Positions 1 through 35,520 of a stretch of DNA of 64,000 nucleotides are shown here, piece by piece. The first letter of the stretch is position 1. Every line of letters begins with the position of its first letter. A program made the translations under genes and the position numbers. Source of the stretch: Opisthorchis felineus (taxonomy: Eukaryota > Platyhelminthes > Trematoda > Opisthorchiida > Opisthorchiidae). The stretch lies in NCBI GenBank assembly GCA_004794785.1, contig SJOL01006491.1:1061377-1125376 (forward strand), written 5' to 3'. The notes under the pieces were generated by a model. The model saw nothing but the letters and a program-made list of their open reading frames with translations, was not told the origin of the DNA and did not search any database.

Positions 1-519
1 ATTCGGTAAATCCGAAGAATTAGATTTCAAGGGAATGCTGGTTCGATCAAATTGTGTTATGCCAAAACACTCGGTACCCTGGATCAATTCTGGCGCGTTC
101 GTATTCTCATTCTACCTTGTGGGTTGCCTGCGTGCAAAGGATGGGAAGGCAAATTCTCTTAAGCACGTGCTGCCTACAGCGAAGACCCATTTGAAACAAT
201 CAAATATGTCCCGTTCCAATGCCAACCGACCGACTGAAGCCAGGGTTGTCTGTCGCCCAGACCAGAAACGAACACACTTCATTCGTTTTCCTGATTCCGA
301 CGTATAACAAAAGGTATTTTCGATTCACAGAGGCATTTGTCACTGTAAGATAAGACCCGGAACCGTGCAGACAGGCACAATCATTGGTTTGGTTGATGCT
401 ACCCTGGTGATTCTCAGACATTTACTGGACCTCAGTCCACTTTTCGGTAAACCGTTCGAGTGTTCGGCAAATTAGTCACATCGCTCAAGCGTGAGCAAGT
501 TCACTTGTTCGGGTGTGAT
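1..519. other. Unannotated stretch, no recognised gene
   Basis: Only short ORFs (90 codons or fewer) are present, with no domain I recognise and no repeat shared with the rest of the window. Confidence 0.5.
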
Positions 520-775
520 AATTCAGGTGCGTGCGATGGTGGAGTAAAGGTAACACGCTCACATCGCATGTTAGATATCCGGAGTTCAAACCTCATCAAG
601 GTCAAAGATATGCACTGGTAATGAGCTCTCATAAGAGCGAAACTCAGGTTCAGTGATTATCCCCTTTGGTGCAAACTCACCAGAATAATTTCGTCAGGAC
701 AGCAGGAGGACTGTTCAAACCGGAGCGATCTGAACGTGAAACCATATTTTACTTGGTATTGGACAAATGATAGTG
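520..775 (+). repeat. HHR-2 family repeat (tRNA-like head plus hammerhead), copy 1
   Basis: The head resembles a tRNA-type Pol III promoter: a stretch around 545-575 with alternating 'ggtaacacgctca' character, then a degenerate B box 'gttcaaacc' near 586. A hammerhead-like module follows at 613-655, then a tail with 'tttggtgcaaactcaccaga' that is shared with the copy at 35740-35990. The module order is identical in the copies at 16.0, 35.5 and 35.8 kb. Known relatives by architecture are the schistosome Sm-alpha retroposons, which combine a tRNA-like promoter with a hammerhead. This copy is diverged. Confidence 0.7.
613..655 (+). ncRNA. Degenerate hammerhead ribozyme (HHR-2 copy 1)
   Basis: Helix I strands CACTG (613-617) and CAGTG (651-655) are perfect complements. 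Helix II GCTCT/AGAGC and the GAAA box are intact. The CTGATGA box reads GTAATGA and the palindromic helix III plus cleavage site (ACTCGAGTC in the best copy) reads ACTCAGGTT. The helices are better preserved than the core, and this copy should not cleave. Confidence 0.6.
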
Positions 776-2626: not shown

Positions 2627-3114
2627 CTCTGTTTGCGAAATACACCCATTTTCACACCAATTGTATTTTCACGCCAGACTGGAATGAATCCTAACTGAAT
2701 CTCTCGTTTATGATATTTTTCAACTGAATGTGCCGCACAAAGGTCGCCACCTCATGTTTCGAAGTATATTTTCTTGGATGAAACTACTCACGTGGCTACT
2801 GAAAAATGTTCCACAGCTCACGACCGTTACCAAATGAAAAATCAGGTAGCCTTTGGGCAGCACATTCAGTTGAACAGCATCATAAACGAGATATTCAGGT
2901 TAGATTCACTAGATTCTCGCATAAAAACTAAACTAGATTGCAAATGAGTGTTCTTCGTGAATTTCGTACTGTTTGGATTCAAACAGATCATGAGGTTGGC
3001 GGAAACTCGGTGACCGGGCCCACCTGATGAGCCCGCGATGGAAGGGCGAAACCGGTCATGGGCTGTCGAAGAGTTTTTAGCAACCTTGTGAGCAGTTGTA
3101 TTCATCCTCTGTGT
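2627..3114. repeat. HHR-1 family repeat, inverted pair
   Basis: Bases 2636-2830 carry an HHR-1 unit in minus orientation, and 2833-3105 carry one in plus orientation, meeting head to head near 2831. Shared blocks include 'gcagcacattcagttga' and the hammerhead arm. Near-identical octamers at the ends (ctctgttt 2627-2634, ctctgtgt 3107-3114) may be a decayed target-site duplication. The end sequence 'gcagttgtattc' matches the right end of the clean insertion at 40975 ('gtagtgtattac'). Confidence 0.8.
3019..3062 (+). ncRNA. Hammerhead ribozyme, core intact (HHR-1)
   Basis: Reading 5' to 3': helix I strand CCCAC (3019-3023); CTGATGA (3024-3030); helix II GCCC (3031-3034), a 9-nt loop, then GGGC (3044-3047); GAAA (3048-3051); palindromic helix III ACCGGT (3051-3056); cleavage-site C at 3057; helix I strand ATGGG (3058-3062). 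All catalytic-core positions of a type I hammerhead are present. The closing 1.1/2.1 pair is C x A, probably a CpG-decay change from GTGGG. Helix III is only 3 bp with no loop, so cleavage would probably need a dimer pairing two copies through the palindrome, as known for other short-helix-III hammerheads. Confidence 0.85.
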
Positions 3115-3635
3115 TGTTTAACATACCATTACCACGTCTGTGGGGCGGACCACCAGAGGCCCTTCTGTGTGCGCCGTGGGGCTCAGTAGTTCAGTGGTAC
3201 CCATTTGAGTCGACAGGTATAAGCCACCACCTGGCCTGTCCCTTCCTCTGGTCTTTTTCCCCGAGTCTGCACCGAGTACAGAGGGTTCAGGTGGATGCAC
3301 ACTCGGCTCAAGGCAAACCATATATGGCGCGCGTGCCTATCGTCTCACTGCGATGTGATAGGCCAATCTGGAAACTTATGCCAGCCGGCCACTTGTCAAC
3401 AGCAGACGCACGACCGCGGAAAGGAGTTCGAATACGGCTTCAGCATTCCTTCACTCATGAGCCACAGAGGTTCCATGGGAAAACCGGGGTGTGTGCATTA
3501 TTCTTGTGGATTAACTTACTAGCACACAGGTCATACAGGTCATACTAAGATGCGGGTGTATGCATAGTTTTTACCGTGGTAGATAATAGGTCACAGCTAC
3601 TAGCTGACAATATATTGTATAAATACACTGCAAAA
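3115..3635. other. Unannotated stretch
   Basis: There is a 150-codon ORF at 3096-3548, but it overlaps the repeat end, lacks any recognisable motif and faces an equally open frame on the other strand. I see no gene. Confidence 0.45.
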
Positions 3636-4100
3636 AATGGGACAAGTCAAAAGGTGACTTATCGTTTGGGCATAACTGGTAAGAGCTCCTGAGTGAAAGT
3701 CCGGACGCGGTACATGATTGCTTTACAGTCTAACTGATACGCATATTCCGTAGTTGTCCGTGGGCTTGTGGAGTTCGGTTGTCTTCCTGTCATGTGCATT
3801 TGCGCGTTGCGTCGAGCCACATGAGTGTTTATTGTGCGCAATGTGAAAAGAGAGGTAGCCATTCCTGCCTGACCTGATGTGGGTGAAGGCCGTTGGCATG
3901 GCACGTGATGCAGGTGATAGCGGAGTAAACAAAATGGACGGGTAATTGTAATGCACACGTACAGGTCGAACCAAGCGAAGTGGTCGAAAGTTTAATTAAG
4001 CAAATAGGAACCGCTACAAACTCTTGGTTTAACAGATCTTTCTGGTAGTGCGGAATCAATCATTGATTCAGTGGTGACGTTGGTTTAAAAGTGGGTATTC
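3636..4100. repeat. Dispersed repeat C, copy 1 (unidentified)
   Basis: This stretch shares ordered blocks with 17795-18290 in the same direction, for example 'aaaaggtgactt', 'gttgtcttcctg', 'ttgacctgatgt'/'ctgacctgatgt', 'aacaaaatgga' and 'ccgctacaa'. I see no coding potential or terminal repeats. Its class is unknown. Confidence 0.7.
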
Positions 4101-4939
4101 AACGGTGAAACGTTGCTTTTTATGCCTTTAGTTATGACACAAGATATGCGGAGACTATCAAGACGGGAGCCGGCAACCAATCTGAAGGCACCTACTTATG
4201 TGGGGACCGAACTCAGGTCGTCGAAAATGCAGCCCATGGCCTGATCCACCCGGCCAAATGGACCTTGTGTCAGTGGCTTATTCGTCTTGTCCACGAAAAC
4301 ACTTTTTACTCTATGGCATTAAAGTTAAACTAGCTATATGGCTAATGGAATACAGTTGTGCCCCAAGTGGAGACCATCCGTCAAGCATGGTGAAAGTAGC
4401 CTTTCTTGGGGGAGGGAAGTCCCAGTTCAAATAAATCAGCCAAATCCCTCATTTTGTGTGACAACCGAGTGAGCCTCAAGTCAGATATTCCATCTTTTAA
4501 AGGAAATTTGTCGTCTCCTTTTACTTCATACCACTCTGTCTGTGTGCGTGCTACCTTCTGGAATGAATAATCGAATTATAGTCTACAAAATTGGGATGCG
4601 ACTCAGTTCGTTCGCAGAGTGTTATTCGTTGAATCAATTGGTCCGCAGCCTTACCCTTTATCCTAAGCACTGTCTGCTTTTACTTGTCGTTCACTGGTTC
4701 GTGGTCATATGATTTATCACGTGAGGTGATAAATACAGACTAACTGATAAACCAGCGTACACACATTGGTCAACTATCACGCTGATGTAGTAGGACACAT
4801 TGGAACAAGGGGGTTAACTTTCACCTCGTAGCCATGTGTAGTAATAAAATGCACAGTCCGCGTTCGAAAGTGGATGAAACTAACGTACACGGTCCACGTT
4901 ATGCTTTTTTTTCCTTCGGTTGCACAATCAGAATAATGT
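4101..4939. other. Unannotated stretch, possible repeat tail
   Basis: Bases about 4110-4190 resemble 28245-28320 ('gactatca.gacgggagccgg' against 'gactatca.gatgggggttac'), so a further dispersed repeat may end here. Nothing else is recognised. Confidence 0.4.
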
Positions 4940-5353
4940 ATTTGTATTAATGCGCACTGTACTACTCATAAGGTTGCTGAAAATTCTTCGACAGCCCACG
5001 ACCGGTTTCGCCCTTTTTGGGGCTCATCTGGCAGGCGCAGTCCCCGAGTTTTCGTCAACCTTATGTTCTACTTGACCCCAAATTGGACTGTTTTCAAGAA
5101 CCGTCCAATTTGGGGTCAAGTAGAACATAAGGTTGACGAAAACTCGGGGACTGCGCCTGCCAGATGAGCCCCAAAAAGGGCGAAACCGGTCGTGGGCTGT
5201 CGAAGAATTTTCAGCAACCTTATGAGTAGTACATTGCGCAGAATTACATGCATCGCGATATCTCGAATATCGTAGCAACTGGAACATGAGGCGGTCTGGT
5301 GCAGCACGTTCAGTTGCATGGAAGCCTCACAAACGAGAGATTCAGCTGGGTTC
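4940..5353. repeat. HHR-1 repeat with a perfect 128-bp inverted repeat
   Basis: Arms 4961-5088 and 5103-5230 are exact reverse complements over 128 bp, separated by 14 nt (5089-5102). Each arm is the HHR-1 hammerhead arm. To the right the HHR-1 body continues (the 'cgatatctcgaatatcg' palindrome, then 'gcagcacgttcagttg') until it runs into the N gap. Other HHR-1 inverted pairs are clearly diverged between arms, so exact identity here means a very recent event, gene conversion or an assembly fold-back. Confidence 0.9.
5156..5196 (+). ncRNA. Hammerhead ribozyme with one core substitution (HHR-1)
   Basis: Helix I is CCTGC (5156-5160) with GTGGG (5192-5196). The first box is CAGATGA (5161-5167) instead of CTGATGA, so the essential U4 is changed. 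Helix II, GAAA (5182-5185), palindromic ACCGGT and cleavage-site C (5191) are all intact. A mirror copy with the same substitution lies on the minus strand at about 4995-5035. Both are probably inactive. Confidence 0.75.
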
Positions 5354-5384
5354 NNNNNNNNNNNNNNNNNNNNNNNNNNNNNNN
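5354..5384. other. Assembly gap (31 N)
   Basis: A run of 31 N interrupts the HHR-1 body, which suggests that the repeat was collapsed or could not be resolved. Confidence 1.
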
Positions 5385-7965
5385 TAGTAGTGTTAGTGGC
5401 AGTAGTATGTTTTCAAGCAGGATTTGCCCGTAAACAACCTTTAGAGCATCAGTACATTTGAGTGATATCACTAGGCTTGGAAGGCATTCAGAGGCAAACC
5501 AATTTTTCTTCTTCTACCTCACAGGTTTGCGAAATGAGTCGTACATGATCTAGGAAAGTATCTCCGGGAAACAATAAGAATGAAGTTCCATGACCTTAGT
5601 AATTTCCAACCGTTAGCAGCTTAACACTGACTCGGAAGTGCATTGCGACGTCTTTTGGACTGAACTGAAGAAAATCTGCTCCAACTTTGTCGGACAGGAT
5701 CATCTTATTTCCCGTGATGTGATTGCCTAAAGACCTGGGGTAGTCAGATGGGTTACAGCCTTCATCGAGTGAGTGAGCTCACAATGCCTCAAACAGTTCG
5801 TAGAGGTGACCAGAAAAAAACAGCTGAGCTCATGCTCCATGATGCATCTCATGATCTACCGTATTGTGCACAAGCCATGGACCACATATTCATACGGAAG
5901 ATTCAATTGTCAGGCCCATTGGGCAATACGAAGAATGTACACCAGAGACAGTCAACAGATTCCACTCGACTTCTTAACCTTCTGACCCACCATGACTAGA
6001 CCCAAAGTAATTGCTATGGCACACAGTGTTCGCATTTCCAGATTTTGTAGAAGTGGGTGATCTCGAGTGAAAAGAAGGAAGGCCAAACATGAGAAAATTC
6101 GTCGGTTCGTTTTGAAGATTTGGACATTTCACCCAAGAGTCCAATGGGACCCGGACATAATAGTCCCCTTAGAGGATAATTCTTCATTTTAGGGGAGCAG
6201 ATTGAGGTAGGGCAGTACTGTTCCGATGATTGCGTGCCCATTTATAATAATAAATAGCTCACCCATCTGGTGTGAATACTGGTCTAACCAAATTTAACTT
6301 ATTCAGACAATCTGGCTATTGTTCAATGGTCTGATTAAATTGTCTTAGTGTTTATCGACCTTCGCGAAAGTTACCAGGCCATGGGCTTGGGATTTTGCAC
6401 CTATATTACTCGAAATTTGTGGTAAATCTGTGGCTGGATAGTAAAACTCTGTCACATGGATCCTTTTTGGGACTCATTAGGACAGTTAAAACACTGCCTG
6501 TCAATCTGTGCTTTTAAGGTTTGCCGGAAAGACGGAAAACTCCAAATGATTGGGACTCCAGCATGTCCTGACCATTCCTAATGAGGACGACTGTCAGGTT
6601 CACGATCCACGCACGTTTTCTGCTCTCTCTCCCTCTCTCTGCTCATCAATCTAAATACGGAGGAATACCTCGGGCGACTGGGAGTTTCTGGATTATGTCT
6701 CACGGAAGCAGCCAGTGGGCAGTTGGTCCTGTGGGCGACACTTATCTATCTATGTGATTAACTTCAGTTGGTTTATCGTCTTTCCTTCGAATCGTCGCGC
6801 GTGCCCGGCAGAATTTGGTGACCAAACATTCGAACTCTTATTAAAGCATTCGGGAGGAATGTTTTGTTTCAAATGTATTATGACTGTCTTTTATTCTTTC
6901 GACAGAGACAAAAAACAAACAATATTGTGGAAACCGATGTTCAGAGCGTCCCCAACAGCGACAGGATGCTGGAACTTTCTCCATCTTTGTCTAGTTATCA
7001 AATGACATTTCAAATGTACGTCTGCGGTTAACTCCCTGGCATCCTGCCAGAATCCATAAGCCTAGGTTCCTCTTGAGGAACTGCTAATTCCGAACTCGTT
7101 GACTGTGCTGGTCAGCTAACTAGACCACCTTGCTTGATCGAGGGAAATCGACTCAAGTGTTGTCACACAAATGGCGCACAATGTGCCGGTGCACTATGCT
7201 GTTTGGCTCACAACTGCGAGTGCAATTACTCAAGCATTTAATTGGACCCCAGTAGTACGCCTCGGTGATCCGACCGTGTAGGTAAAATATAGCTTCACCA
7301 TGGTATACCGCGCCTCAAATTTCACTCTCGCTGGTGTACCAGTAGCTGAACTACTTAAATGTCCCGGTATTATCAGGCTATTATTACATCAGAAGTCATT
7401 CTTTCGAGGGTTGTGTCATTCGCATTTGAAGGTCTGATGTTTGGGTAATTTTAACATTGAGACTGCATGCTGGTCTTTATACACTGCACCATGCCAGTTT
7501 CGGTGTTGATGCCAGCTTCACCGGTTACTGCTTGGGGTCTATCCAGGAGTTTATTATCCAGGACAGTTCCCGCTTCTTCAAAGTGCCGAAAAGCTTTTAG
7601 TGACGTGCAATGGTGAGACAACTTTCGACTTGAACCAATCAGAATAAACTTGTCTACCGTTACCACGGTAGACACTCACAGATCATCAAAGGATCCGGGT
7701 AATCTCAGACATTGTTTTTGTGTTGAGCTATTGTACCATCCTGCCCACAAGACAAAGTACAAGACAGTCCGGCAACTTCCCTCCATATCTGTCCTGTATT
7801 AACAACACCTCCACTGTGACTAGTACCTAAAACAAGGAAAGATCAATAGGTATGAAGCATGTTTGTGTATTCCGATGTTAAGTGTCATTTGGAGACCACC
7901 GGATTCATAGATCGAACCTAAAGTTAACCTAAAATGGCTGAGTATGTTCAGAATTTTGTTTCGTC
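5385..7965. other. Unannotated stretch
   Basis: Only ORFs under 100 codons are present, without recognisable motifs, and no repeat is shared with the rest of the window. There is a short pyrimidine run near 6620-6645 (ctctctccctctctctgctc). Confidence 0.45.
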
Positions 7966-9303: not shown

Positions 9304-10671
9304 ATAACACACCGAGTATCGAGATCCACACAATACTGTGTCGTTTTGGTTGCAAACTCTGACTTCATTGTAACAGGTCAAGATTCCACGCCATTCTTTT
9401 TTAGCTGACACGTCGGCTCACCTAAAACTCACTTAGAACGTAAACCAACTCAGTGGTTTTATTCTCAAACAGTCAAGTTGACCTACGCCATTAAATGTTT
9501 AGCCAGTCAGATAGTCATGCGAGATCCGGTGCACTCCTCAAGTCTCGTGCTCAGCACTAAAACTGTGATCTCGGTCAAAAAATATTCGAAATAACTTGCT
9601 TGAAGGAAAATGGCCATTGTGTACTTCTGTTGGTTAGACCAGATGATTCAATGCTGGTTTCACAGGCACGTTAGTTGTGTTTGTGTGTGTGTGTGCACGC
9701 GCAACGTAATTACACAGTCACCAGTTGCGATGAGCTCCGTGTGGGCCTGGTCGCTCTGGAAGCTGTCATAGTAACGGAGCAATCATCCTTACCTCTTGTG
9801 TGATGTATCGGTAGCTGTGATTCGTTCTTCTAGAATTGGCACGCACAAAACAAAAATCAGGCAGAGTGTACAACGCTAAGTGTGTGTACAAAGAAAATGT
9901 ACCTTTCTTGGTGTTTTGGGTCGATTTGGCATGAGGTAAAATATCTCGTCATACTCGTTCCAGTGCCTTTTCATCCGTACACTCTCTCTGGTACACAATT
10001 TTTGTTCTACGGAATGGCACTTTTGGTGTTTTGATCGGAAAGCAATGTGTCACAACTTGTTCACAGTTGACACCTGTCGACGACAACATTATGATTCAGC
10101 CTTTTTTCACTAAGCCCACCTGAAAATACCAGTGCTATGTGAACGTGATTTTTCGATCGGCGTTCGCTGGCCTGAAACAACTCCATGGGTCAAATGGAGA
10201 GCAGTTTACGTCAGCAATCTTTCGTTAATATTCACACAGTTTATACACTTTATAATACCCCTTTTATTGTCAAACCAATGCTCCTTCACGACTGTCCTCT
10301 GCTCACCAGTGTCCTAGTGGATGGCTGACCGCTTTATGACGTAACGACCTCAACTTCGTAACCCTCTGCAGACAGATTTACTTTTTGGAATGAAGTTTGT
10401 AAGAGACAAAGATAACAAGGAATATTCACGAAATAGTCTCTATGACGAACGTCAGTCAATTATAGTACACAGTCGCATGAGTGATCACCTGCATACATTA
10501 GATAGCTGCAACAAACTCCGGCGCCGGTAAGCATACACTTTGCAGATGAACTCTAATGAGAGATAAATCGAGCCTAGAGCTTCCTGCTCTGTCAGGAACC
10601 AACCAGATTAGTTCTGTCTGGACAGGAGCTACATATCTCTCAACTACCTGCGACTAATTTTTCGAGAACTA
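9304..10671. other. Unannotated stretch
   Basis: I recognise no gene. A short (gt)n-rich tract lies near 9675-9695. Confidence 0.45.
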
Positions 10672-10710: not shown

Positions 10711-11654
10711 ACTGAATATTAAGGAAGCCACTTAATAATTACTTCGGAAAACCTTATTGGAAACATCTAAATTACTGAACGGACATCAAGCAATTCTCGG
10801 TGGACTGTATAAGCTACGATGTCGGACATAGGAGAGAAAACGCGTTTCGTGGTAGTTTGACTAGGTCAACAAGGTCTTACACAAAGGGTTACCTTCGTAA
10901 CCCAACTTGTGTGTAGGACAAACACCGGTTTGCAATCGACCTTTACTCCGCAATAGTTCGAACTGATAATACAATCCAACCAAGCAAAAAACCGATGCAG
11001 TGCACTGAACCAGTATACATGATTGGTCGATACGCACGCATGTATGTATCCAACTGTCTGCGTTAAAATGAAGATCAAAGTTCTGTGTTTATAACTCATT
11101 TGCATAGTTTGTTGGTGTGAACGGAATATTCCGACGAGTTTTGAATGATTCTTTAGTTAATGATGGTCTTACACCGAACGTGCAGCACTAGGACAGACGC
11201 AGAGTCCATTTGTGCCGACATTCGATATGTCGCTTTTCATTCCCTTGGATTAATGTAGTATGATAGATGAATCCCGGAGTTTACACCGGGATTCCCACAA
11301 TCCAGTGAGCCTTCAGTAATGCAGACTAGTACGAGGCTTTCGGTGCAAGTTCACCAACCTTACCGTGCTTCACGTAAAGGTTCAAAACCAGTTGGCCTTC
11401 ACAGAAGTTGCCACTGGGGGATGTGTCACACTTGGGAGGTTTCAATTTACAAGTGGTCACCTTGCAAATGGGTCATCTTAACCAGCAACCCAACCAACAA
11501 CCCAAAAGCCCAACCAACAACCAACATACCATCAATTTTTAGATAACCTAACCTTTAACCAGGTGACAGTTATTGCAAAACTTGTACGTAATAACTATCA
11601 TAGGAAGAAATGGAGTGACCGAACTCCCGAAAGAAGAGGCACTGAATTCGCGAA
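10711..11654. other. Unannotated stretch
   Basis: No gene is recognised. A C/A-rich simple repeat built on ccaacaa lies near 11479-11530. Confidence 0.45.
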
Positions 11655-11790
11655 GTAGGTTAATCTGAAGACCAATTTGGCTATAACGGGAGACTCAGCC
11701 AAGTCCCAACTGGACCGCTCGTTTATGATATTCTTCAATCGAATATGGTGCACAAAGACCGCCGCATCTCGCATTGAAAAATATCCCCAA
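11655..11790 (-). repeat. HHR-1 body fragment
   Basis: It contains the HHR-1 body blocks 'accaatttgg', 'gggagactca', 'tcgtttatgat' and 'tgcacaaagaccgccgc' in the minus orientation. The ribozyme arm is absent. Confidence 0.7.
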
Positions 11791-12408: not shown

Positions 12409-12815
12409 CTTCTTGAAGGAAACTACTCATAAGGTTGCTGAAAACTCTTCAACAGCTGTTGATGGAACAATCAGTGTGCAAGTGAGTGTATTTCACGAAT
12501 TGCATCCACTTTGGATTCAAGTAGAACATAAAGTTTATGAAAGCTCCAGGACTAGGTTTACCTGATGAGGCGAGGTGGAGGGGCGAAACCGGTCACGACT
12601 TTCCCAAGAGATCTCAGCAACCTTATAAGTAGTGTTCCGTCGAGAAAAGTTACTGAAACATCTGGAATATCCTACCAAATGAAGAGCGAGGCGGCGGCCT
12701 TTGTGCAGCACATTCAGTTGAAGAAAACCATAAATGACAGATCCAGCTGGACTTCAGCTGAGTCTCCCGTAGAAACCAAATCCGTATGCAAATGAGTGTA
12801 TTTCGTGAATGACTA
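12409..12815 (+). repeat. HHR-1 family repeat, with inverted 5' piece
   Basis: A short minus-oriented HHR-1 arm piece (12409-12460, 'actactcataaggttgctga') is followed by a plus-oriented unit: 'gtgagtgtatttcacgaatt', ribozyme arm 12530-12636, body 12637-12815 with 'gcagcacattcagttga' and 'tgagtctcccgtagaaacca'. The body's final 'gcaaatgagtgtatttcgtg' repeats the block that precedes the arm, showing that units can run in tandem. Confidence 0.85.
12557..12599 (+). ncRNA. Hammerhead ribozyme core, helix I lost (HHR-1)
   Basis: CTGATGA (12562-12568) and GAAACCGGTC (12585-12594) are intact. Helix II is imperfect (GGCG...GGGC), and the helix I strands (TTTAC, ACGAC) no longer pair. It is probably weak or inactive. 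Confidence 0.7.
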
Positions 12816-15890: not shown

Positions 15891-16140
15891 GTATCGGGTT
15901 TTCATTTTTCCGGCTGAAAGCTTATTCACGTTCACAGCACTCGCATGTGAGCAGTCTATTATTCTCGTGAGTCCACAGCGGCGGGGTTAACACTGGACTC
16001 GAGTTTCGCTCTCATTAGAGCTCATCAGCACTGCGTACCCTTGGTCGGGTCAGGGTTTTAACTGCAGGCATCTGACATGCGAGGCGAGCATGTCGCCACT
16101 ATTCCACCTTATTCGTGGCTGTGGGTAACGGCAGTGACTA
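15891..16140 (-). repeat. HHR-2 family repeat, copy 2
   Basis: On the minus strand it reads: tRNA-like head (from about 16118, with 'gctcgcctcgcatgtcagat'), B-box-like 'agttaaaaccc', the ribozyme at 16033-15991, then the family tail ('gtggactcacgagaata', 'gctgtgaacgtgaa'). Same order and spacing as the copies at 0.5 and 35.8 kb. Confidence 0.85.
15991..16033 (-). ncRNA. Hammerhead ribozyme, core intact (HHR-2)
   Basis: On the minus strand: helix I strand CAGTG (16033-16029); CTGATGA (16028-16022); helix II GCTCT, loop AATG, AGAGC; GAAA; palindromic helix III ACTCGAGT; cleavage-site C (15996); helix I strand CAGTG (15995-15991). All conserved core bases are present. Helix II is a perfect 5-bp stem with a 4-nt loop. 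Helix I has one G x G mismatch, which is C-G in the copies at 0.6 and 35.8 kb (CACTG with CAGTG). The sequence is unlike HHR-1 apart from the core, yet the fold is the same. This is the best candidate for an active ribozyme in the window. Confidence 0.9.
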
Positions 16141-21200: not shown

Positions 21201-23849
21201 CACTCGAGAAGGCCGATGGAACTGCTGCTGCGGAAACTGACTCGAAGGTGTCGCAAAATTCTACCTAGTGTACTATTTCCCACAGCTTTAACTGGCTGAT
21301 TTTTGTAGTAATCAACTGTTTTCAACGACAACTGCTATCCCGCAATTGTACTTTCTTATATCCTTCATGAATTATTAAGCGAAACTGATGTTTGCTGAAT
21401 TTCGAGGACTTTGGTCAAGAGACTCATTCCAAAGCACTATGTACACGGAAGGAAACACAGTTGAGGTTGGCACGTTCTACTGAGAAGACTAAATATCGAT
21501 CATGTGTCAGACTTCCGAATATTGCCCCATTCTCCAACCTGGAATCCCGAGAAACTTACGACGTTGTCAGGTCGGTACTAATGGAGGAAACACGAAGCTT
21601 TACTGAAGTTTGTCTTGACTCAACTTAGATGGCTTCACTAAAATGTTGATAGTAATGTTGTTCCCAACCGCGTCATCTTTCCAAAGCGCTTTTTCGCTCA
21701 ACGTGGTGCTGGCTTCATTTAAGATTCGGAAGTATTCTCCACTCTCAGGTTTGTCTCCCTTTGGTACATCTGCTTACCGCTAATCTGCTTCCAAAATTTA
21801 TGTTAGGAAGAATTACCAAACTTCCCGCACAGCTGCTTCGAGATAGCACACGAGAGAATAATTTCCTCTGAGGACTTATCACACCTGAACATGATTGATT
21901 CTTTGCTTCCGGCTGTTCTGCACCGGCCGTTCCAGACCCTGGTGATCATCCAAGCCAACAGATGTTTACCCCGTCAGATGAGTGTATTTGCACTCACCCT
22001 CATGTGATCATACCAGTGTTCAAACTGTACCCTGAGGTGATGTTGGTAAGGTTGTGTAAACCAGCCTACTGCAGCATTCACGGTAGGCGGGTGGTGCTCT
22101 AGCCAACGAACATTGCGCAGGTAAAGTATGCTCGAGGGCATAATGCATGAGCATGGTGCATTCCCAAGTGTCCTACAAAAGTGTTCAATCGGTGCTTTTG
22201 GTGGTTTGTGCTCTTTTTGATGGGTGAGCTGAATTAACTGGACCTACGGAAACCCACGGGAAACGGATGCCCATAAAGCAGGGTTCTCAGCGTGGATAGT
22301 GTAATGAAAACAACTCCACTATCAGATAGCGTTTATTTTCCCCAGCAAAATGCACTTAACCAACAATGATCATGTGGCACTCAAGTAACTCGACTATGGA
22401 TGAAAGGATAGTATGTTGTCCTACAGCCAACACATCCGTCTCTTTTGAACAATGAAATGACAATTTCAATCCCTCTTATGCATGACGAAATCACAAACTT
22501 TCAGTTATTCACCCATTCAGCCTCTAGGATTTGTCATAAACATTACTATTGGGATAAACCTGAAATTTTGAAAGGGGACGCTAAAGAGACCAAATTTTGG
22601 TTCACTTGATGCTGTTATTCTACTACTCAAATGTGAACGTCCATGATTTCTTTTCCTGAAGGAAAACAACAGACTTACATCCAAGGTGGGTGGTCTAGTT
22701 TGGGCAATTTTGGTCGTGTTTACCATGATATTCGAGGTGCTCTAGTGAACAAAAAAAGCGATGCTCAAGCCAGAAGGAAGAACAGTATTCTGGACTGGCG
22801 AATAAAGCTGTTTGACCGATGCTTCCCCGCGGCTAGCATCTTTCTCAGAGTGCGCCCCGGATCCCTTAAACCGGTGGATGCCTATGACACACAAAATATT
22901 CTGGAACCTGATTCGTTTGTTCCTTGGTTTCTGTGGTCATTGGTTCCATAATGGCAGGAAACTCCTCGGACAGATCAAGAAGCGATAGTGGATTCGTATG
23001 ATGAAAAAATTTTCCATGACCCGTTCCATGCTTGAATGCTAAACATGGATTCAAAACTTCCGTGAAGAGGAAAGCGAGGCTTACAGGAATCACTCTAGAA
23101 AGCCAAGGCCAGGACTTAGTAGCGTCCGTACAGTATCAAGGTTCCACTGAAAGAACGAACCAACCGAAACTGGAATATTCTAGATCCACAAAAATAATAA
23201 CATTTCACTCATGGTTTTTCCACTTGATTCATAGTTGTACGCATTAGTAACAGCAAGATCACGCTGGAGGTGAATAAAACGCCATCAGACGTTTACCTCT
23301 GGGCCTGTAAGGGACCCACTGAATTAACTACCTGCCACTCTAGATTAATGGCGCGGTTCCCTCTACTTGAAAGTCAAACCAGCGCTTCTTACATTTTCCG
23401 AGAAAAATACTGATTAGCTCACAATGTACGTATCCAAGATTTCCGCAGGCAAACCACTCCCCCTCCTGCAGTTGGCGAGGGACGCTCATTTGCAAACTAA
23501 GTTAAAGAACATCATGAGCGAGCGATGTAGCTGGAGTTAACTTGAGTTCCCCGTTAACATCATGTTAATTTGAAAATTAGTGTATTTCGGCAATTACTTT
23601 AGTCGAGTTGTTCATATTTGTTACATGTGTCGGCGTGAGCACGCTGGTGACCCAAAAGGTCAACCTTACAAAAACAATCGTCTGTGTTGCACGAGTTCGA
23701 ATGACAGCCGTTGCAGTGCTCAGTGTGAGTGAAATTCGAATGCCGTACTTATTCTGCCGTAGACCTATTTCACCGCATTCTTCGCCGGTCTGGTTGATAT
23801 AGCTAATTCATAAAACAGAACTGCAGCTATCTCTCCTACATAACACTGC
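18291..23849. other. Unannotated stretch
   Basis: About 5.5 kb in which I find no recognisable protein, RNA or window-wide repeat. All ORFs are about 100 codons or shorter. It could be intron or intergenic DNA. Confidence 0.45.
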
Positions 23850-23950
23850 CCATAGGAGCTATAAAATTCTGAACAACCCATGACTGGTTTCGTCCTTCTT
23901 AAAGCTCATCAGGTAGACTTGATCCCAGAATTTCCATCAATTTTATCCCC
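23850..23950 (-). repeat. HHR-1 ribozyme arm, isolated
   Basis: A minus-oriented HHR-1 arm only ('caacccatgactggtttcg', then 'gctcatcaggtaga'). No body is recognised on either side. Confidence 0.75.
23877..23917 (-). ncRNA. Hammerhead ribozyme core, weakened helices (HHR-1)
   Basis: CTGATGA (23912-23906) and GAAA are intact. Helix III reads ACCAGT instead of the palindrome ACCGGT, and helix II is imperfect. Helix I TCTAC/ATGGG pairs only partly. Cleavage activity is doubtful. Confidence 0.6.
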
Positions 23951-26900
23951 TAACTGATCACAAAATTTGACGCATTTTTGGTGGTAGGCACTCAAGTGTA
24001 AAGTAGGTCAGTGTTAAGGGGAGAGTGAACTGAATGTGTAGCTAGAAATCGCTTGAGTCTCCAAGTAACAGCAACTTCATTTTGAGATGTGTGTGCGCTC
24101 TTTAGCGGAACAGAACCTAATTTCTAGAGGACAAACCACCGGGTGATAACGTTGGTCGTGAAAATTCCGAAGATCAAACAGCGCCAGAAGAAACAGGGAA
24201 CGATTCTCCCAATGTTCTTGGAGCGCTCGAAAAGTTAGCGAACACCGGAAGTTTCGCCGTAGATTGGTGACAACTTCATTCACTGACGCAAGTGACAATC
24301 TCGCAATACTATCTGAAGGCAAGAGGAAACAAATTCTCATATACGACTCACTCCTTCGTTACAAGTAGTCTTTTTTGTTAAAATACACTATCGTAGGCTA
24401 TCGCTTTTTTGATCTTCTCAGGAACTTTCTATCTTCAGAGCATACACGCTTTTCAATGAGCCACCCTCACAACGAATAGCACCTTCGAATAATAAACAGT
24501 TGTAGTGATTCACGAGGCTACTTCTCATAGAGGGGAGATCATATCACAGGATACACAAATGGATGTTTTGATCAGCCACAGTCATTTGACAAATGGTATC
24601 CTGACAATAACCATCGTATCCAGTTATTCAAAACTGTTATTCGTGTCTACAAGTGTAGGCTTAACCCTAGCAGTATTTTGATCCTGATTTCCGCTGCACA
24701 ACCATAGTGGTTGTATAAATCGGGCAGATGAATACAGTGAAATGCTCTGGAAACAAAAGTCCTTATGCTTGGTTCGTCCAAACAGACTCGGGAGTGTGAG
24801 ATGATCGTAAAGGACCTCACTTAACACCAGCCGATATCTCCACCAAAGAATCTACTGAAACAGTCTTTTGAAGGTGCGAAAAAGCACTTTTATTTGCGAG
24901 TGAACAACTGAAAAAATTCCGAAGAATGGTCCTCCAGAATGAGAAAACTGTCTTACAAATATTCTTGCTCTTATAAAAGAATTAGTATCTTAAGGGCTAC
25001 CAATCCCAGTAATGCAGCATGCCTGTTCAAACCCACACTAGTGACTATTGTGCAATGAGCAGTTTCTGAAAATTCCTACTTTAGCTCCGTATCAAAGCGA
25101 TGAGTGCTCGAGCACTATCTAATGATAAGTCTACTTGGGCATTTGCACCAGTATGAGTAAATTTCCTCCCGTTAATTTGGTTCCCAAAGACTGGATGTTA
25201 TGTTTTGCCAGGCAGTTAGATTATCCCGATTTTTTCTCCTGAAAAGGATATTCGGGCTGCGTCGTCCACATATCCAGTAAACCTTACATTTTAAAGAGCT
25301 TGTGCAGTTTGGAACATTGCGTCAAACCTATAGAGTTTCCATATCATATCCTTTAAGATGGATGTCACTCGACAGCCACCAATGTCTACAGCCTGGTCGT
25401 CCGAATAGTTGCAACAAGCAAAAGACTTGACTAATTCAAACGACCAATAATATCCAGCGTTCAATCTTCGGGCCCAAACTTACAGGGAAATGAATGGACT
25501 GAAAGTAACCCGCGTTGCTGCAAATGTTTGTGTTGACCTTCGAATGGATTATGACCAATTCGCAAGTCATAAATAGTCGAAAGGATATTTACTGGTAAAA
25601 TCAACCTACAAACTGTTTTTATTGGTGTAAAAAAGCACTTTGCATTGATCAAGGTGGTAAACCTCAATTTACTGTCCTCCTCCCAACACGTGAAAGACTC
25701 CTGTTAAGGGGCTGTTGCTCATTGGACGGGCATTCTTTGGAGTATTGTTAGCTCTGGGCTTAAAAATCGCTTTCAATACTATCGAAAAACAATTATTGAG
25801 TGTTAATATCCTTTTTTAATTCTAATGCTCCATCTTACAGGTCTCCGCTGTCGGGATGTAGTTTATACTAAACCATACTCACTTTTTTTCATCAAAGAAG
25901 TGACTTGTACAAAGTTCTATCCTTAGAAAATTCGATTGCATTTAGTTATCTGTTTGGACTTCAGCCGGAAATTCAGGTTCGTAAACAGTTGGGGTATATT
26001 TCCACCCACATAACCGTTTAAACGGAATCTCCCCATAACTAGTTACCAATATACATCTTTCAAAATCCCTCACGAATTGTCTGCTACCTTGTGTGTGCCA
26101 ATAAATTTACGAAATTTTAAAGGGGTAACTGAAATTAGTGATAAGGTAAACGCATTCAGCTAATGCACAGGGTAAATTTTATGCTGCTGGATACGACAAC
26201 CGTTAAAAGTTACTGATGCGGTGGACTGAAGTATGAGATCAATTCAGCTAAATTACGGTCAGGAAGCCATTCGAAGCCATCAGGAAGTCTTGTTATGACA
26301 TACAATCTTTCTGTTCGCCGTAGAAACTGCAAATTTCATGATTCACCGACTTGAAAAACATTCTATCAGCCAACACGTTTATCCAGTAGTACGATGCTAC
26401 GTCCGCTTGATTGAGTACTGCTTTTGAGAATGGCTCAACAGTGAGAGTTACTCTGACATGGTGGTAAATGGGTATGGCCAACGTTTGGTCAAAAGTATGG
26501 TGGGATCCTGAAAGGCTCCGTCACACGAGCTCTTTTGTATTTCATAAGTGCGGAGAGATCAGACGCGTGACTATTTGCTAACAGTCTCAGGCCGTTACCT
26601 ATGCACCATGGGTCCATTGATCAGCTTGTGAAGCCGATGGATTTGATTTTAGGTGTGAATATTTTCTCATAGATTTTCTTTTTTTTTGTGAGTGAAAAGC
26701 ACCTTAACTGGGTTGCTAACACATCTGACATGGATTGGTTCAACAACATTCTGTTTACAAGGATTTTCAACGTAATATTACTCAAGTGATTCAGTGGATA
26801 TCATTTTAATCGCTTTCGATGTGTTATTTCATCGCACCATCATTGGGTCACTCAATTTTTCCACTGAAATCTTGATCCAACAGTACTAGTCCAGTCAGCA

Positions 26901-29330
26901 TTTTTGGAAAACCTATCTAACTGTTGAATTATTAATATCGAAGTTTGGCTGCATCTTAAATGAAATTAGCGTGCTTCAACAACCCACAGCCTTTAGCGAC
27001 AGGCGCTACTAGGCCTTAATCGGAATACTGGAAACCGATAATTTTCTCACGCATTCAGATATGATTGTGTGTTGTTAGATTGATTCTGCTTTTCTGTAAC
27101 TGCTGCAAAATCACATAGCTGTCTCCAAAGCTAATCGTTTTCGTGAAAAAAAGATGTACTGTGTTCTTCTCACGACCTTGTCCCGTACCACGTGATCTTC
27201 CGTCTGGAAAAGATCCATCCAGGCGAACAAACGAGAGTCACATGACTCAAGTGATCTGGGTATTTTGTTTTAGACGACACGGAAAGCACAAGAAGTGTAA
27301 CGAGGCTGTCGCGCGATGAGCATGTGGTTTCCGGCTGTTAAGCCTGCTTTTGGATGGTTTGTTTTTCTAGAACTCTTTCAAGAGGATTTTAGTGACTACC
27401 AGATCGGAAACAGCTGGCTGGTTCTTCATTGAACCGCATCGCAATGGGGAAGAAGCCGATTAACAAAATTGATGTAGTGTTTTGTGAGGACGTACTGCCA
27501 GCAGCTGACTACGCTTAGGCCCGTTCTCTGAGATTAATTACTAGGCGCCAGAACTCGGTGAACCCAGTACCATACATTATTTAAATTTAGCGGTATGGCA
27601 ATGAATATATGGCAACACAGTTTTTACAATGATGTAGCAGGTTTTTGAAGATTTTCAACAAATAAGTGAAGAAACAAGTGACACTGTTTATTATGAATAA
27701 CCATTTCCTATATGTGTGGAACAGGAAGCAGATAAAGACAGCGCCCCCAGTTTATACTACCATCTTTAGAGAATAACCAAACTCTTCATAACTTCGAGGT
27801 ATTATCTATTGGACGTAGGGCCCAAAACGAAATCAGTAGGACTAACAGGATATGCTAACTCAACTGTCTAACCACGCATTTCACACGGTTATTACAAGCG
27901 AACCGGACCATCAAAGGAGCGTATAAATCTCTCAGGAAAATAATCCACATTCCTTCGATTATTCTGCATGCTTTAGTAAAACGTCCAACAATGAACCCAT
28001 ATACGAAAGGCAAAACACTTGCGTGGAGAGCCTGTCAGTAAAATCATCCCGCTATCATTTCACAGGTCGGACAACCATCGGGATGTGTTCCACCCCAAAG
28101 TGACTACTGCTCGTAGTGTCTTGGTCTGCTTTTGGGTTCCGGTTATACTTTAGTGTTATGCTGTGTGTAAAAAATGTTTCCTACTCTGTTACTCGACGAC
28201 GAAGGAGATGAACTGTTCCTTTCAAAGCGTCAAAATGTCAGTTAAGGTTACTTTTTATGTTTACGAAACGGCTTTTGTAGTGACTATCAGGATGGGGGTT
28301 ACCGGCCAATTTGAAGACGCGTTATTAAAATCGTAGTTATGGGCTTATTCACTGAACCAGTCGGAAAGAGTTTCGTAGGAAAGGGGGATAGTGCATTTAT
28401 ATTGCAATCGAGAAGAACAGAAAAACCATTTCGTTCTTACAGATGTCGTCATCATCATTGACAGGAACACCAGAAGAAAACAGTACTACTTCACTACCAT
28501 ACAACCATGTCTGAATAAAGCCTTATAGTGGAAAGAAAACAAATGGGACCGGAAAGGGGACCTAGGGCCAGCCTACAACAAACAGCTTAGGTACCTACAC
28601 ATCCAACACTCAATCAGACAATCAGGCTAGAAACTGACAGCATGGAAGCCAATGATATCGGTTAGCCACCATATCTTTCAGTGTCTCCAGCCAAAGCAAA
28701 GGGAGAGTCACGTGGACTTCATCCTGGAAGATCAACAGCACTAACAGCACCAAAACTCTTCGTAACATCCTTCTGTCACGTCCGTTGGACGTCGACCACT
28801 TATGAGGAAGGAGATGCCGTGATTCCCAGGTTTTTGCACTCCCAAACTCATGTCTGGGATCACAAGACTTTCATCATTTGAGCAATGATTATTTTAGCCT
28901 AGTTGGAGTATGGATGTGAAAAGCGATCGGTAAATGGATAAGTCTGCTCAAATCAGTTCAGCTACATGTAATTCCAAATTTGCCGGGGACTTCTGCCTGA
29001 TCAAACGAAAGAAGTTGGACAGATTGGGATAAAAATTACCAAAGATTGTCAAATAGACGAGTATTGTTTTGCCTCATTGGAAAGCACTGGGGAAAGCCGG
29101 AGAATTCTGGGAAGGCAGTGGAGCAGATCGTGCGTTAGTGGTTACCAGCGTTCCTTGAAAGCTTAACTGAAATGAACGATGAATGATGATGTTCCTATGT
29201 GAATCAACCAGGGGAAGCCAAACCTTCGCCCCATATACTGACTACATGTTGAAAACAGTACATTCTTAAAGAAGACCTCGTATTTTATTCTCAAATTAGT
29301 GGCTGGGAGGTGATGATAATCAAGATTGGG
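23951..29330. other. Unannotated stretch
   Basis: About 5.4 kb without a recognisable gene. Bases 28245-28320 resemble 4110-4190. ORFs are short and without motifs. Confidence 0.45.
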
Positions 29331-30816
29331 CCAAGATATCGGATCCTTTGTGGTGAAACACATACATACATGCAGTCTGATGGGCTCTTACACTTCACAA
29401 AAGTCTGACAAATGAATGACAACAATGAGGGACACAGTTTGGTAGTTGGTATAGTTTTTTTCTCAAATAAAAATCTGAGTAAAATATATTTATGGCTTTT
29501 TTATTGCAACTTTTGGGTGCCCGTATTTTAGCCTTGAGTGATCGATTTCAACTCACTGTCAAGGTTTTTGGGAGGACACTTGGGAAATGTGAACGCGGTG
29601 ACGGATCATAAATACATAAGGTAACCAAAAGTAAACCAGGACTGAGCCTACACAAGGTGTGACAGGATATATGTGACATTTTTTCAGTCTGGTACTGACT
29701 AAACACTGTGAAACCAATTCTCTGAACAAGCAAAAGAGAGACCAAATGACCGAATCAATGCTAGCGTTCAGCTGTCCATTCACGAGTGGTGTTTCAAGCG
29801 CACACAGTTGTTTCGTCGTGAAAGTATTAAAGTGCATCTGTCGTTTATAATAGTCGTCAGTCTTCAGAAACTCCGACTGAACTGACAGGTGGTAAAAAGG
29901 GCCACAAGATAGTGAATGAATCTGGATGAATCGAAGACAATGGGATACCGAAGAAAATCAACAGTGCGGCTGAAGGCATTTCACCTGTGCATATCACATT
30001 TGAGTCCACTAGGACAAGTCATCCCAGGGAATCACAAACACAAGCGTTTCGTTCGTGTTATTCAGGAAACGCCTATGGAATTCGTATGTTTAAGGTACCT
30101 GATTGCCAACCTGACAAGTGGACCGTTTGAACTTTTGGTCTTATATCAATGTAGTTTGATCAAAATATTACTGGAAAGTGATCCTTACTCCGAGCCAGGA
30201 GGATGAAACACTCCAATGTGAGTTCTACAGGAACAAGTAGACGCGGTAAATTTTTGGTCGTAGACTCTCCTGGAGGTTCCTTGTCTGTACTGCTCCTAAG
30301 GTCACCCTGTCCTCTTAGCCCACATATCTCCTTCTCAAATTACCATCTCAAAACTTGACTCGAGTCTACTCAGATCCATATAGTAACTAAAGGCGTGTGA
30401 ATCGCTGAGAATCAGTGCCCAAACTCGTAGGAATATCAGATCACAAGTTCCAGCCAATTGGGATGCTGTTACGAGTAATACAAGTCAGTGCGGTATTGAG
30501 GAATGCTGTTCAGGTACGAATTCCCTTTGACTGATTAGTTGTGAGTTGCAAGTACTCGCTAGATGATCTGACCAGTATTTTAATTCGTTCGTACTGGTAA
30601 AAATCTGCCCACAGGGTTGAAGGGTTGCAACCAAACCTAACGTTTTAGAACGACGGGTAATATCCTTAATAAAAATAGAATTAGTCGTTCAGCTCTCAAG
30701 CCCTTTTGGTGCATAGCTGCCATGTCATCTGAAGGAAGCATGAGGGCTGAGATACCGTCAGGCTACCCAAGCCTAGACAGGAGCAGTCGAGTTGCCGGAG
30801 CTGGGTTCGAACCACA
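29331..30816 (-). repeat. Right arm of the ~1.48-kb near-identical inverted repeat
   Basis: Reverse complement of 1125-2610. Its inner end (29331) abuts unrelated sequence, whereas the left arm's inner end abuts an HHR-1 copy. The outer end passes into a SINE-1 head that has diverged from its partner. Confidence 0.9.
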
Positions 30817-32655: not shown

Positions 32656-32862
32656 ACACTACTCACAAGGTTGCTGAAAATTCATCAACAGCAACCTTGT
32701 GGGTAGCGCTCCGTCAAGAAAGTATGCTGAGATATCTGGAATATCGTACCAAATGAAACATGGGGCATCCATTGTGTAGCACATTCATTTGAGTAATATC
32801 ATATCCAAGAGATTCGGGTGGGGTTAGTTTGAGTCTCCAATTAAAACGAACGAGTGTACTTT
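32656..32862. repeat. HHR-1 repeat, inverted and ribozyme-less
   Basis: A minus-oriented arm tip ('actactcacaaggttgctga', 32659-32678) jumps after about 15 nt to plus-oriented 'cagcaaccttgtgggtag' and the HHR-1 body (to about 32862). The whole ribozyme segment between the two tips is missing, as if deleted at the centre of an inverted pair. Confidence 0.8.
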
Positions 32863-33424: not shown

Positions 33425-33505
33425 GAAGTGAGCCCCAAGAAGGGCAAAACCGGTCGTGGGCTATCGAAGAGTTTTCAGCAACCTTGTGAGTAGTGTATTA
33501 CGTCT
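33425..33505 (+). repeat. HHR-1 ribozyme arm, truncated
   Basis: It matches from 'gagccccaagaagggc' to 'cagcaaccttgtgagtagtg'. The CTGATGA box is destroyed ('aagtgag') and GAAA is preceded by a changed base, so the ribozyme is dead. Confidence 0.8.
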
Positions 33506-35189
33506 ACACAATAATAGGTCCTATTTTAAGATAAAGTAGTCAGCTATTCACTCACTGTGATTTCGCCGACAGCAGCATTTCTTTTCCCCTTATCGTGCTG
33601 TTTGCCTTCAGTCGAAAAACATCAAGTTTCCTGGAACTGTCTGCTGCTAGCTAGACTGATTTCAGGATTTATGGTGAGAGAGGAAGGAAATGTACACAAA
33701 TAATGGATGACTCTAAAAGTAGTGCGAACATGGTTGGCCAGTCAATGGAAGCCCCCCCCCCAATTTGGGTCAACCACATGTGGTTTACGCGAAGCTGAAT
33801 GTGCAGCCGCCTACCTATCTAAACCCAAGGGAGTAATATCAGCGAGCAAACATGAAGAGGCCTGCTAGGAATGATCAGCCGACCCATGCATGAGGTAACA
33901 AAGAGCAGGAGCATTGGCTCTTTCAAACGAAGGCGATTATCTCTTCCAGGCCCCAGAAAATTACTACAACAATGCTCTTTGGGGAATGCCTATTACAATG
34001 CCATTTAAGTGAGCATGGATAGTCAGCTGGTAAACAGTAGTCAAATGGCTGCTGATCCTGTCACCTCGTTGTATGCCAGTAGAGTCGGAGGACGGGTATT
34101 CATTATAAAGTGGAGCTGATTTATTTGTGGAAGATGTTGACCAGGGATGGGAGAAACCCACTTAGGCCTTAACTGAGGCCTGTGTGGTGGCTTTGCGGTG
34201 AGTACATTAGCGACCAACGGGTACGACCCTGCTCGGGAATCTGCACCCGATAGTTGCACCGATCCACGTAGCTACGGTTTTACTCTACATGATATGGCCG
34301 TCCCCAGCGACATTCTTGCGTCCGAGCACTGAAATACGCTGTGCTTCAAAGCTCATCAATCTCACTACAATTGACCTGGCTGTTCTGTCAAGTGTAAGAT
34401 ACTCTCATAATCTGAATCGCGGATAACACTTTCGCAAAACTACCTGAATCCTGCTGTTCTCGAGTTCAGGCTCTACTCTTGAGCTGACCCCATATGAGTT
34501 GTTTCGAGATTCAGTCGTCGGCCGTTCGTTTTAGATGGCCTATTAGGCTAAGCATCAAGTCGCACATGATTTAATTGCTTTGCTCATTTGAGAACTTCCA
34601 TGTTCTTGAGTCGATCTGATTGGTGGTTCTTAGGTGTCTTGCTCGGGCACTGTAGGTGAAAGTTGACAAGAGTTCTGATGTGACTTCGGCGTGTGGTCCG
34701 TGAGTCTGACCTCCATTATGTGTACAATACTAATACTAAAAACGAAAATCAGTCAAAGCATTTTGTTGCTGAAATAGGTTCCTCTGGCCTTCAGAATCTC
34801 CTGCACAATTTTTTGCGGCTCAGTACATTGATGTGGGTTCATATACACTACTTGGTAAGAACTATCACCTGAAGAACAAGTCAGGAAAGAACTTTCCTCA
34901 TGTTTGTTCTACTGCAGCATGGAATAGTACACAATGCAGCTCCCAGCTGGTGTAATGACTAACGTTCGAGAGTTCTGTTGTACAAGACCATAAACGTTGT
35001 CGATACTCAGCAACCAAACAAAAAAGTTTTATTCTCTTGAATCCAGGCAGTTGGCATCATTTTAGTGCTGTTGAGCACTAGAGTGTCTTCGTTAATCGAT
35101 ACATCATGAAGCAACTCACGTTTAGTTGTTGTTGGATTGCATCTTTATTGGTCGGCAGCTCAAGACAGCCAAGCGTTTAGTGCCAAATA
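33506..35189. other. Unannotated stretch
   Basis: No gene recognised. A poly-C run lies at about 33753-33762. Confidence 0.45.
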
Positions 35190-35325: not shown

Positions 35326-35520
35326 ATGTAAAATTTCATTTGATTTTTGCTCCGTATTTGCAAGCTGGAAACCTAGAATTCGATGGGGCCGCAGCAACAT
35401 CTCATTAGTCGTAGGTGGATGCGGGATTTGTAGAATTCTCGTTCACATCACCCTTATTTGAACAGTTCTTCTCCCGTCCTGGCGCAACTATTCTGCTAAA
35501 GCCACACCAAACGGGAGAAG

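Follow-up and report, generated by a model that had tools for sequence, protein, structure and literature searches.

The stretch of Opisthorchis felineus contig SJOL01006491.1 analyzed here (64,000 nucleotides, referred to as the window) carries a complete type I hammerhead motif at 3018-3063(+), which reads GCCCAC CTGATGA GCCC GCGATGGAA GGGC GAAA CCGGTC ATGGGC. From sequence reading and a descriptor match, helix I joins GCCCAC (3018-3023) with ATGGGC (3058-3063), and encloses CTGATGA (3024-3030), helix II (GCCC at 3031-3034 with GGGC at 3044-3047, closing a 9-nt loop), GAAA (3048-3051), the palindromic helix III ACCGGT (3051-3056) and the cleavage-site C (3057), after which the cut is predicted. 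Helix I is paired at five of its six positions in this copy; the pair beside the cut is C.A here and C-G in 26 of the 37 distinct aligned copies of this repeat family, HHR-1. The hammerhead lies at the tip of a long potential stem (2989-3090(+)), in which CATGAGGTTG (2989-2998) can pair with CAACCTTGTG (3081-3090). The whole insertion spans 2632-3096, and comprises a (-) arm with its outer 3' end at a site termed A (2632), and a (+) arm with its outer 3' end at a site termed B (~3096). To its left, the 212 bp at 2401-2612 recur in inverted orientation at 29329-29540 with 99% identity, which reads as a recent repeat or duplication, and the motif region near 2074-2130 is found again at 29.8 kb. 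The adjoining region at 3180-3430 features an A-box-like TAGTTCAGTGG and, ~240 bp farther, a B-box-like GAGTTCGAATACGG, both identified by eye, and is possibly another SINE.

A hammerhead descriptor (CTGANGA, helix II of at least 3 bp, GAAA, helix III of at least 2 bp, and helix I paired at five of six positions) matched the window twice, at 3024 and 16028(-), and produced five matches in 150 Markov-1 random windows. At gathering level, Rfam gave no match in the window. At E<=10, Hammerhead_HH9 (RF02275) matched three HHR-1 copies with E-values of 1.7e-4 to 5.9e-4 (40664-40722(-), 4981-5045(-) and 5146-5210(+)), and a further copy weakly (33429-33455(+), E 4.7). This model is the top covariance match for most copies of HHR-1 and of a second hammerhead repeat, HHR-2, alike, with scores of 19.4-42.2 bits that all fall below its gathering score of 52. 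The copy at 3018-3063 itself reached just 21.8 bits, with Hammerhead_3 (E 4.8 across the whole window, 0.023 across its 301-base stretch), and the best HHR-1 value among nine selected genome loci was that of L045 (Hammerhead_HH9, E 9.5e-7). Matches to MIR837, to mir-BART9 and to miRNAs at 56.2 kb were taken as chance, arising from a perfect palindrome near 5032-5159 and a TA run. Sequence reading, descriptor and sub-gathering Hammerhead_HH9 matches together bear out the motif elements named in a preliminary description of this DNA (CTGATGA, GCCC/GGGC, GAAA, ACCGGT and the cleavage-site C), and support its assignment of a type I hammerhead with a very short palindromic helix III to a dispersed family. 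Two hammerheads with a short palindromic helix III can act as a dimer; in the aligned HHR-1 copies the helix III sequence ACCGGU is paired in 91.9% of cells, and the other helices in 83.2-90.8%.

Iterative nhmmer searches placed the HHR-1 module at eleven positions in the window, on both strands: 2986-3096(+), 4961-5068(-), 5123-5230(+), 12524-12633(+), 23845-23947(-), 33429-33494(+), 40131-40205(-), 40641-40748(-), 40867-40960(+), 46678-46787(-) and 60740-60846(-), with three short 3'-arm pieces at 2783-2849, 12422-12462 and 32658-32715. The repeat places listed earlier, from 2.6 to 60.8 kb, are correct by this search, which adds the partial module at 40.2 kb (40131-40205(-)). Several of these modules belong to inverted insertions. 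The pair at 4961-5353, whose right end enters an N gap, has arms at 4961-5085(-) and 5106-5230(+) that are identical over their overlap and carry a core mutated to CAGATGA. At 12410-12811 a short (-) arm is joined to a full (+) unit of ~333 bp (12478-12811), with its hammerhead at 12562. The insertion at 40470-40974 runs from an A end (-) to a B end (+), with an intact core at 40710(-) and a (+) arm that lacks CTGATGA, and is bounded by the target-site duplication GTGAAGAAGTGGC (left 40454-40466(+), right 40976-40988); the fragment at 32657-32850 is an inverted pair without a core. The remaining features are a 5'-truncated copy that ends at site B (33429-33510(+)), a diverged hammerhead module (23845-23964(-)), a feature that spans the module at 46678-46787 (46517-46893(-)), a copy at 60672-60907(-), and body fragments without a hammerhead at 11639-11767(-) and, as a weak match, 23492-23595(+). 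The 293-309 bp units of HHR-1 are too short to encode a reverse transcriptase (RT) with a GIY-YIG domain, and no reading frame of at least 170 aa overlaps its copies within the window. ARAGORN called no tRNA in the window, and no sign of a tRNA-like head was noted in HHR-1. A separate region at 41078-43091(-) features RT, RNase H-like and integrase domains over two neighboring frames, and is probably a broken Ty3/Gypsy-type element.

To catalogue the family more broadly, the genome (630 Mb, 1848 contigs) was searched with 81 bases of the 3018-3063 region, which gave 1942 first-look candidates; the best-scoring 40 were scored and all 40 matched. The HHR-1 body alone gave 2041 first-look candidates, of which 40 were scored, with 42 matches. 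Our sample of loci combines the best 40 of the 1942 candidates with 20 of the 42 listed body matches and, because the best-scoring loci were chosen, is skewed toward young copies; the first set favors copies that hold the hammerhead, and the second favors copies with the body and site A. HHR-1 is a non-coding repeat dispersed through the genome, with two subfamily units of 293 and 309 bp; the GC of two units is 0.454 and 0.476. Head-to-tail multimers occur. At locus L071 (which includes L061), eight 293-bp units lie head to tail, seven of them identical and one with a single difference, and the array has a variant unit on one side and a partial unit, also variant, on the other. The near-identical inner units and variant outer units of this array (3707-6451) suggest a recent expansion after insertion. 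Across the sample, 10 of 23 pairs of neighboring units are identical over the module, seven of these in L071, and the other 13 pairs differ. When folded as a circle, a genomic unit reaches -90.9 compared with -68.8 +/- 5.7 for shuffled sequence (z -3.9), with 64% of its bases paired, and the typed majority unit gives a z of -4.3.

The preliminary description proposed that helix I keeps its pairing by compatible changes, and that copies be aligned for covariation. Compatible changes are literally present in some cells. They give no evidence of selection, since 89.0% of cells are paired compared with 89.2% in shuffles (37 distinct of 38 aligned HHR-1 sequences); pairs changed on both sides number 4 against 4.4, and the within-family covariation signal is no higher than in shuffles. 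A comparison of mutation rates between core and flanks, suggested as a refuting test, gave a divided answer. Within single copies the two are nearly equal: the 12 core positions differ from the majority in 6.0% and the outer stems in 7.3% (P 0.14 against random position sets), as counted in the 56 modules that were not themselves search matches and that span unit positions 28-82, with the L070 duplicate kept. Purifying selection on single copies is thus not significant, and we set it aside. An intact hammerhead core is retained by 79 of the 106 modules, 33 of the 56 among them. Between subfamilies the module is conserved, with differences at 2 of 108 module positions compared with 37 of 184 in the body, plus 18 gap columns (p 1.6e-6); one member of this comparison is a single genomic unit, and the other is the majority sequence for six genomic units taken at four loci. 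The even decay of single copies counts against selection on inserted copies, and not on the source RNA. We therefore read the module as constrained in the moving RNA and unconstrained in the inserted copy. Exchange between lineages could also have lowered the figure of 2 in 108, and another use of the stem, e.g. protein binding, could account for the conservation as well.

These data bear on whether the hammerhead is merely a fossil or a structural element, such that the repeat spreads without ribozyme activity. This would be compatible with the model of insertion proposed below, and we consider it unlikely, though a serious alternative. It draws on the even decay and absent covariation reported above, and on a purified Penelope-like element (PLE) protein from a lizard, which does not need hammerhead cleavage; hammerhead mutants still insert in vitro (PMC11167929). 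The contrast between module and body across subfamilies argues against it, as do the eight units of L071, which are nearly identical and have their cores intact.

The insertions themselves were examined by mapping 83 of them on the unit, drawn from the window, 39 hammerhead-selected loci and 20 body-selected loci; insertions cut by a locus edge, the L070 duplicate, L001 (the window copy) and L061 (part of L071) were left out. Two RNA 3' end zones emerge, B at 34-56 nt and A at 203-223 nt past the predicted cut. These zones hold 101 of 129 outer 3' ends and 7 of 37 outer 5' ends (Fisher 6.6e-11), and when 150 insertions with random ends were simulated and passed through the same pipeline, 37 of 224 3' ends fell in A or B. 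B ends of one subfamily read GAGTAGTG-ATTACG and A ends GAGTGTATTTCG, in each case followed by the target duplication, and no poly-A or simple-repeat tail was found among the ends inspected directly. The A and B sites themselves bear a likeness that is a hint only, as 0.7%, 1.6% and 21% of the other pairs of sequence windows score equally in three unit variants. The outer 5' ends are scattered; where alignments stop at unit position 108, differences between the subfamilies are part of the cause. Insertions do not usually start at the ribozyme cut: one of 37 outer 5' ends lies within ~10 nt of it, so that linear cut monomers do not normally serve as template.

More than half of the insertions (46 of 83) are head-to-head inverted pairs with both 3' ends facing outward; the other 37 are direct copies. 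Both ends could be classified in 28 of the 46, and 26 of these combine one A end with one B end, the other two being A+A and B+B. This excess has a P of 8.8e-7 under independent ends, and the simulation gave no A+B pair among 74 inverted insertions; 20 of the 46 are not clean A+B pairs. One end of such an insertion is longer than the other, A and B lying ~155-170 nt apart. The apexes at which the arms meet are distinct in 45 of the 46 and otherwise spread over the unit, so that most inverted insertions look like separate events, although 14 apexes form five groups that agree within ~10 nt, and some inverted copies could thus descend from an inverted parent; for apexes near 194-219, a gap in the alignment there may have influenced the position. 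Origin of both arms from one RNA was considered, and the signal is weak on average: among 27 inverted insertions (19 of the 46 have overlaps below 60 nt and were left out), arm identity is 0.894 within an insertion and 0.868 between different insertions. Microhomology at the inverted junction was the same as in simulation (p 0.68) and was dropped.

Of the 83 insertions, 17 lie between target duplications of 9-18 bp, and the other 66 have none of at least 9 bp. In a separate count of 66 insertions (72 mapped, minus four cut by a locus edge, one that coincides with the window copy and one local duplicate), nine have duplications of at least 10 bp, compared with 0.1% for re-paired flanks. The bases just outside the 17 duplications read xTT in 18 of 34 flanks, compared with 3.0 expected, and do so on both sides, as if one endonuclease had cut both strands.

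A second family, HHR-2, is unrelated to HHR-1 and at least ~280 bp long, with tRNA-like A and B boxes upstream of a hammerhead; the boxes were assigned by the A/B-box consensus. In the window, the boxes and the second hammerhead (CTGATGAGCTCTAATGAGAGCGAAACTCGAGTC) lie at 15958-16108(-), with further copies at 476-740(+), as a head-to-head pair at 35442-35947 (35442-35667(-) and 35743-35947(+)), and in diverged form at 10480-10628(+). With open thresholds, Hammerhead_HH9 matches HHR-2 at 15975-16043(-), 35817-35885(+) and 613-655(+), and the best value among nine selected genome loci is E 1e-7, below the curated cut-off in score. A genome search returned 2404 first-look candidates, of which 40 were scored, with 43 matches. 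The majority sequence holds A- and B-box-like motifs and the hammerhead; ARAGORN called no tRNA in any of the 28 HHR-2 loci given to it, and Rfam found none in the four given. Strict head-to-head pairs make up 3 of 48 mapped HHR-2 clusters, with more at wider spacers.

The same genome also carries PLEs. A GIY-YIG search listed six genome places; five were examined, and three of these (L092, L094 and L096) look like PLEs. Pieces of L094 match RVT_1, just under the cut-off, and GIY-YIG; a piece of L092 matches GIY-YIG; and the named relatives of a PLE piece come from Clonorchis, Opisthorchis, Dicrocoelium and Schistosoma, with one weak ant protein (those of a window reading frame come from Clonorchis). 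Downstream lies CTGATGATGTCACCTCGATTGGTGATGAAACGTTTGC, a hammerhead-like minimal motif with palindromic ACGT (by eye), to which Rfam at E<=1 gave no match in L094 or L096. The copies at the three loci stop ~42 nt past the presumed cut or bear a further tail, 29-40 nt long by eye. In the window, a PLE 3' part with a hammerhead-like motif (59276) and a tail, again read by eye, lies at 59139-59365(+); this motif failed the hammerhead descriptor. With the PLE 3' end as query, 3022 first-look candidates were obtained and 40 scored. Among these 40, three head-to-head pairs can be seen, with all 3' ends facing outward; L094 adds a fourth pair. All four inverted copies read (L094 by eye) carry the tail on exactly one end, in a sample of four of which one may not be a single insertion. 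Three have duplications of 11, 12 and 13 bp; the fourth, C969, shows no clear duplication, and an HHR-1 fragment adjoins its tail end. In L101 (about 200-300), a PLE tail end directly abuts an HHR-1 A end; one insertion may be nested in the other, or the template may have switched between PLE and HHR-1 RNA. The xTT motif was not obvious at the few PLE sites inspected. HHR-1 as part of a PLE was considered and rejected: the sequence shared between HHR-1 units and PLE copies consists of apparently nested HHR-1 pieces, besides which L094 gave matches at chance level, with no homology beyond the former. The one-sided PLE tail follows the rule described for a rotifer Penelope insert (PMC3846280) and mirrors A versus B in HHR-1; the two have their grammar in common and not their sequence.

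Our analysis suggests that HHR-1 is probably a non-autonomous animal retrozyme, mobilized by PLE machinery that primes on both target strands. HHR-1 transcripts would be multimeric, and the palindrome ACCGGU in helix III would allow two of their hammerheads to work together as a dimer. Whether uncut or recircularized, the RNA would be taken up by a PLE RT with a GIY-YIG endonuclease, and this enzyme, a dimer in published modeling, would cut both target strands with a stagger. Reverse transcription would then be primed from both target 3' ends at two different internal sites of the RNA, A and B. Extension of both strands would yield two arms inverted head to head, one ending at A and the other at B, and extension of one strand a 5'-truncated or multimeric direct copy. 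The purified lizard PLE cuts and extends both strands, with internal starts at two sites (PMC11167929). Since PLE chemistry predicts much of the HHR-1 pattern, multimeric HHR-1 RNA is the putative PLE template, with A and B as the candidate sites of two-strand priming. The differences between 13 of 23 adjacent units argue for heterogeneous multimers or template jumps, and not for one RNA circle. Further observations count against PLE mobilization. The start site of the lizard enzyme was equal on both strands, with no difference seen (PMC11167929), so that a division of start sites between strands is not known in vitro, nor does this chemistry predict one; the A-B distance of HHR-1 is greater than the 29-40 nt of the PLE tail. 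The lack of common sequence with PLEs, the inverted insertions that are not clean A+B pairs, the xTT motif not obvious at PLE sites, the small difference in arm identity, the apex groups, and the four inverted PLE copies as the whole sample count on the same side. It is an evenly balanced proposition that the inverted A/B insertions record a dimeric Penelope-type RT at work, with both strands cut and primed and one subunit engaged on each site of the hammerhead RNA.

The structure of the insertions also bears on other routes. A LINE could move HHR-1, its inverted copies arising by ordinary twin priming, in which the second primer enters the RNA at a random internal place. The direct copies, the 9-18 bp duplications and the scattered 5' ends also suit LINEs, and the window holds a reading frame at 57820-58470; the frame itself has no Pfam match, and one of its homologs bears an RT domain (PF00078). 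Twin priming, however, fixes one outer end, whereas in HHR-1 both are fixed and, in 26 of 28, are of different kinds, with no poly-A or simple-repeat tail in the ends inspected. We consider a LINE origin improbable.

Snap-back, or self-priming, of cDNA or antisense RNA at a palindrome is another proposed means of making inverted pairs, and would suit the hairpin-rich HHR-1 unit, in which the five apex groups could mark preferred fold-back points. In rotifer Penelope elements, palindromes at inverted junctions have been taken as signs of self-priming (PMC3846280). The same kind of end would be expected on both sides, yet the ends differ in nearly all classified pairs, and the apexes are otherwise spread, which leaves self-priming decidedly improbable. 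A DNA foldback or MITE-type transposon, with the hammerhead in its terminal inverted repeats by descent only, is suggested by ends that resemble short inverted repeats (CGAAATACACTC ... GAGTAGTGTATTACG), but is very hard to reconcile with duplications of varying length, scattered 5' ends and apexes, multimers, and a module conserved between subfamilies.

The preliminary description likened the family in kind to retrozymes, SM-alpha repeats and Penelope elements, and this kinship is supported. The same genome also holds HHR-2, with a hammerhead behind tRNA-like boxes, and PLEs with a hammerhead-like motif, besides head-to-tail multimers of HHR-1. Flatworm type I hammerhead retrozymes, PLE hammerheads and SM-alpha are already known (PMC7229834, PMC8490949, PMC4918200, PMC7761336), and platyhelminths are named among metazoan retrozyme carriers by Cervera and de la Pena 2020 (PMC7229834). 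Its account of non-LTR retrozymes gives them a type I hammerhead, a unit of ~170-400 nt, head-to-tail multimers, GC below 50% and target duplications of more than 4 bp, all as in HHR-1. The highly self-paired unit RNA, a further retrozyme trait, is likewise seen in the HHR-1 folds. These retrozymes are tandem repeats, and the main text lacks the word 'inverted', whereas HHR-1 copies often come as inverted pairs whose 3' ends are of two fixed kinds. PLEs with minimal hammerheads share with HHR-1 a short palindromic helix III, a 3' end ~40 nt past the cut, and head-to-head inverted ends, one of them longer, with similar duplications (PMC3846280, PMC11167929); a typical rotifer Penelope insert has an adjacent inverted pLTR, with a tail optionally on one of the inverted pLTRs (PMC3846280). 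HHR-1 differs from them in being non-coding, in lacking common sequence, and in having ends ~155-170 nt apart instead of 29-40. The schistosome SM-alpha and Sj-alpha SINE-like elements are likewise short trematode repeats with a type I hammerhead (PMC8490949); they are likened here to HHR-1 by description, and HHR-1 differs from SM-alpha in that no tRNA-like head was noticed in it. HHR-2, with a putative head of this kind, may be SM-alpha-like in this respect; schistosome repeats hold a tRNA (PMC4918200).

The machinery that moves animal retrozymes is a standing question. In a review, they are described as having no conserved motif that reveals it (PMC7761336), and the discovery paper names PLEs as a strong but unproven helper candidate (PMC7229834). 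The origin of PLE inverted ends is likewise treated as open in PMC3846280. A literature search of limited depth found no earlier report of inverted two-site retrozyme insertions. With about two thousand first-look candidates, two start sites, and PLEs with like ends in the same genome, HHR-1 makes both the retrozyme-helper question and the question of PLE inverted ends testable. If the inverted A/B insertions do record a dimeric Penelope-type RT priming on both strands, animal retrozymes would depend on Penelope-like elements as their satellites, and PLEs would owe their inverted structure to two-strand priming instead of self-priming. Overall, the mirror-image pattern of HHR-1 copies, so like that of Penelope elements, hints at the machinery that spreads animal ribozyme repeats.
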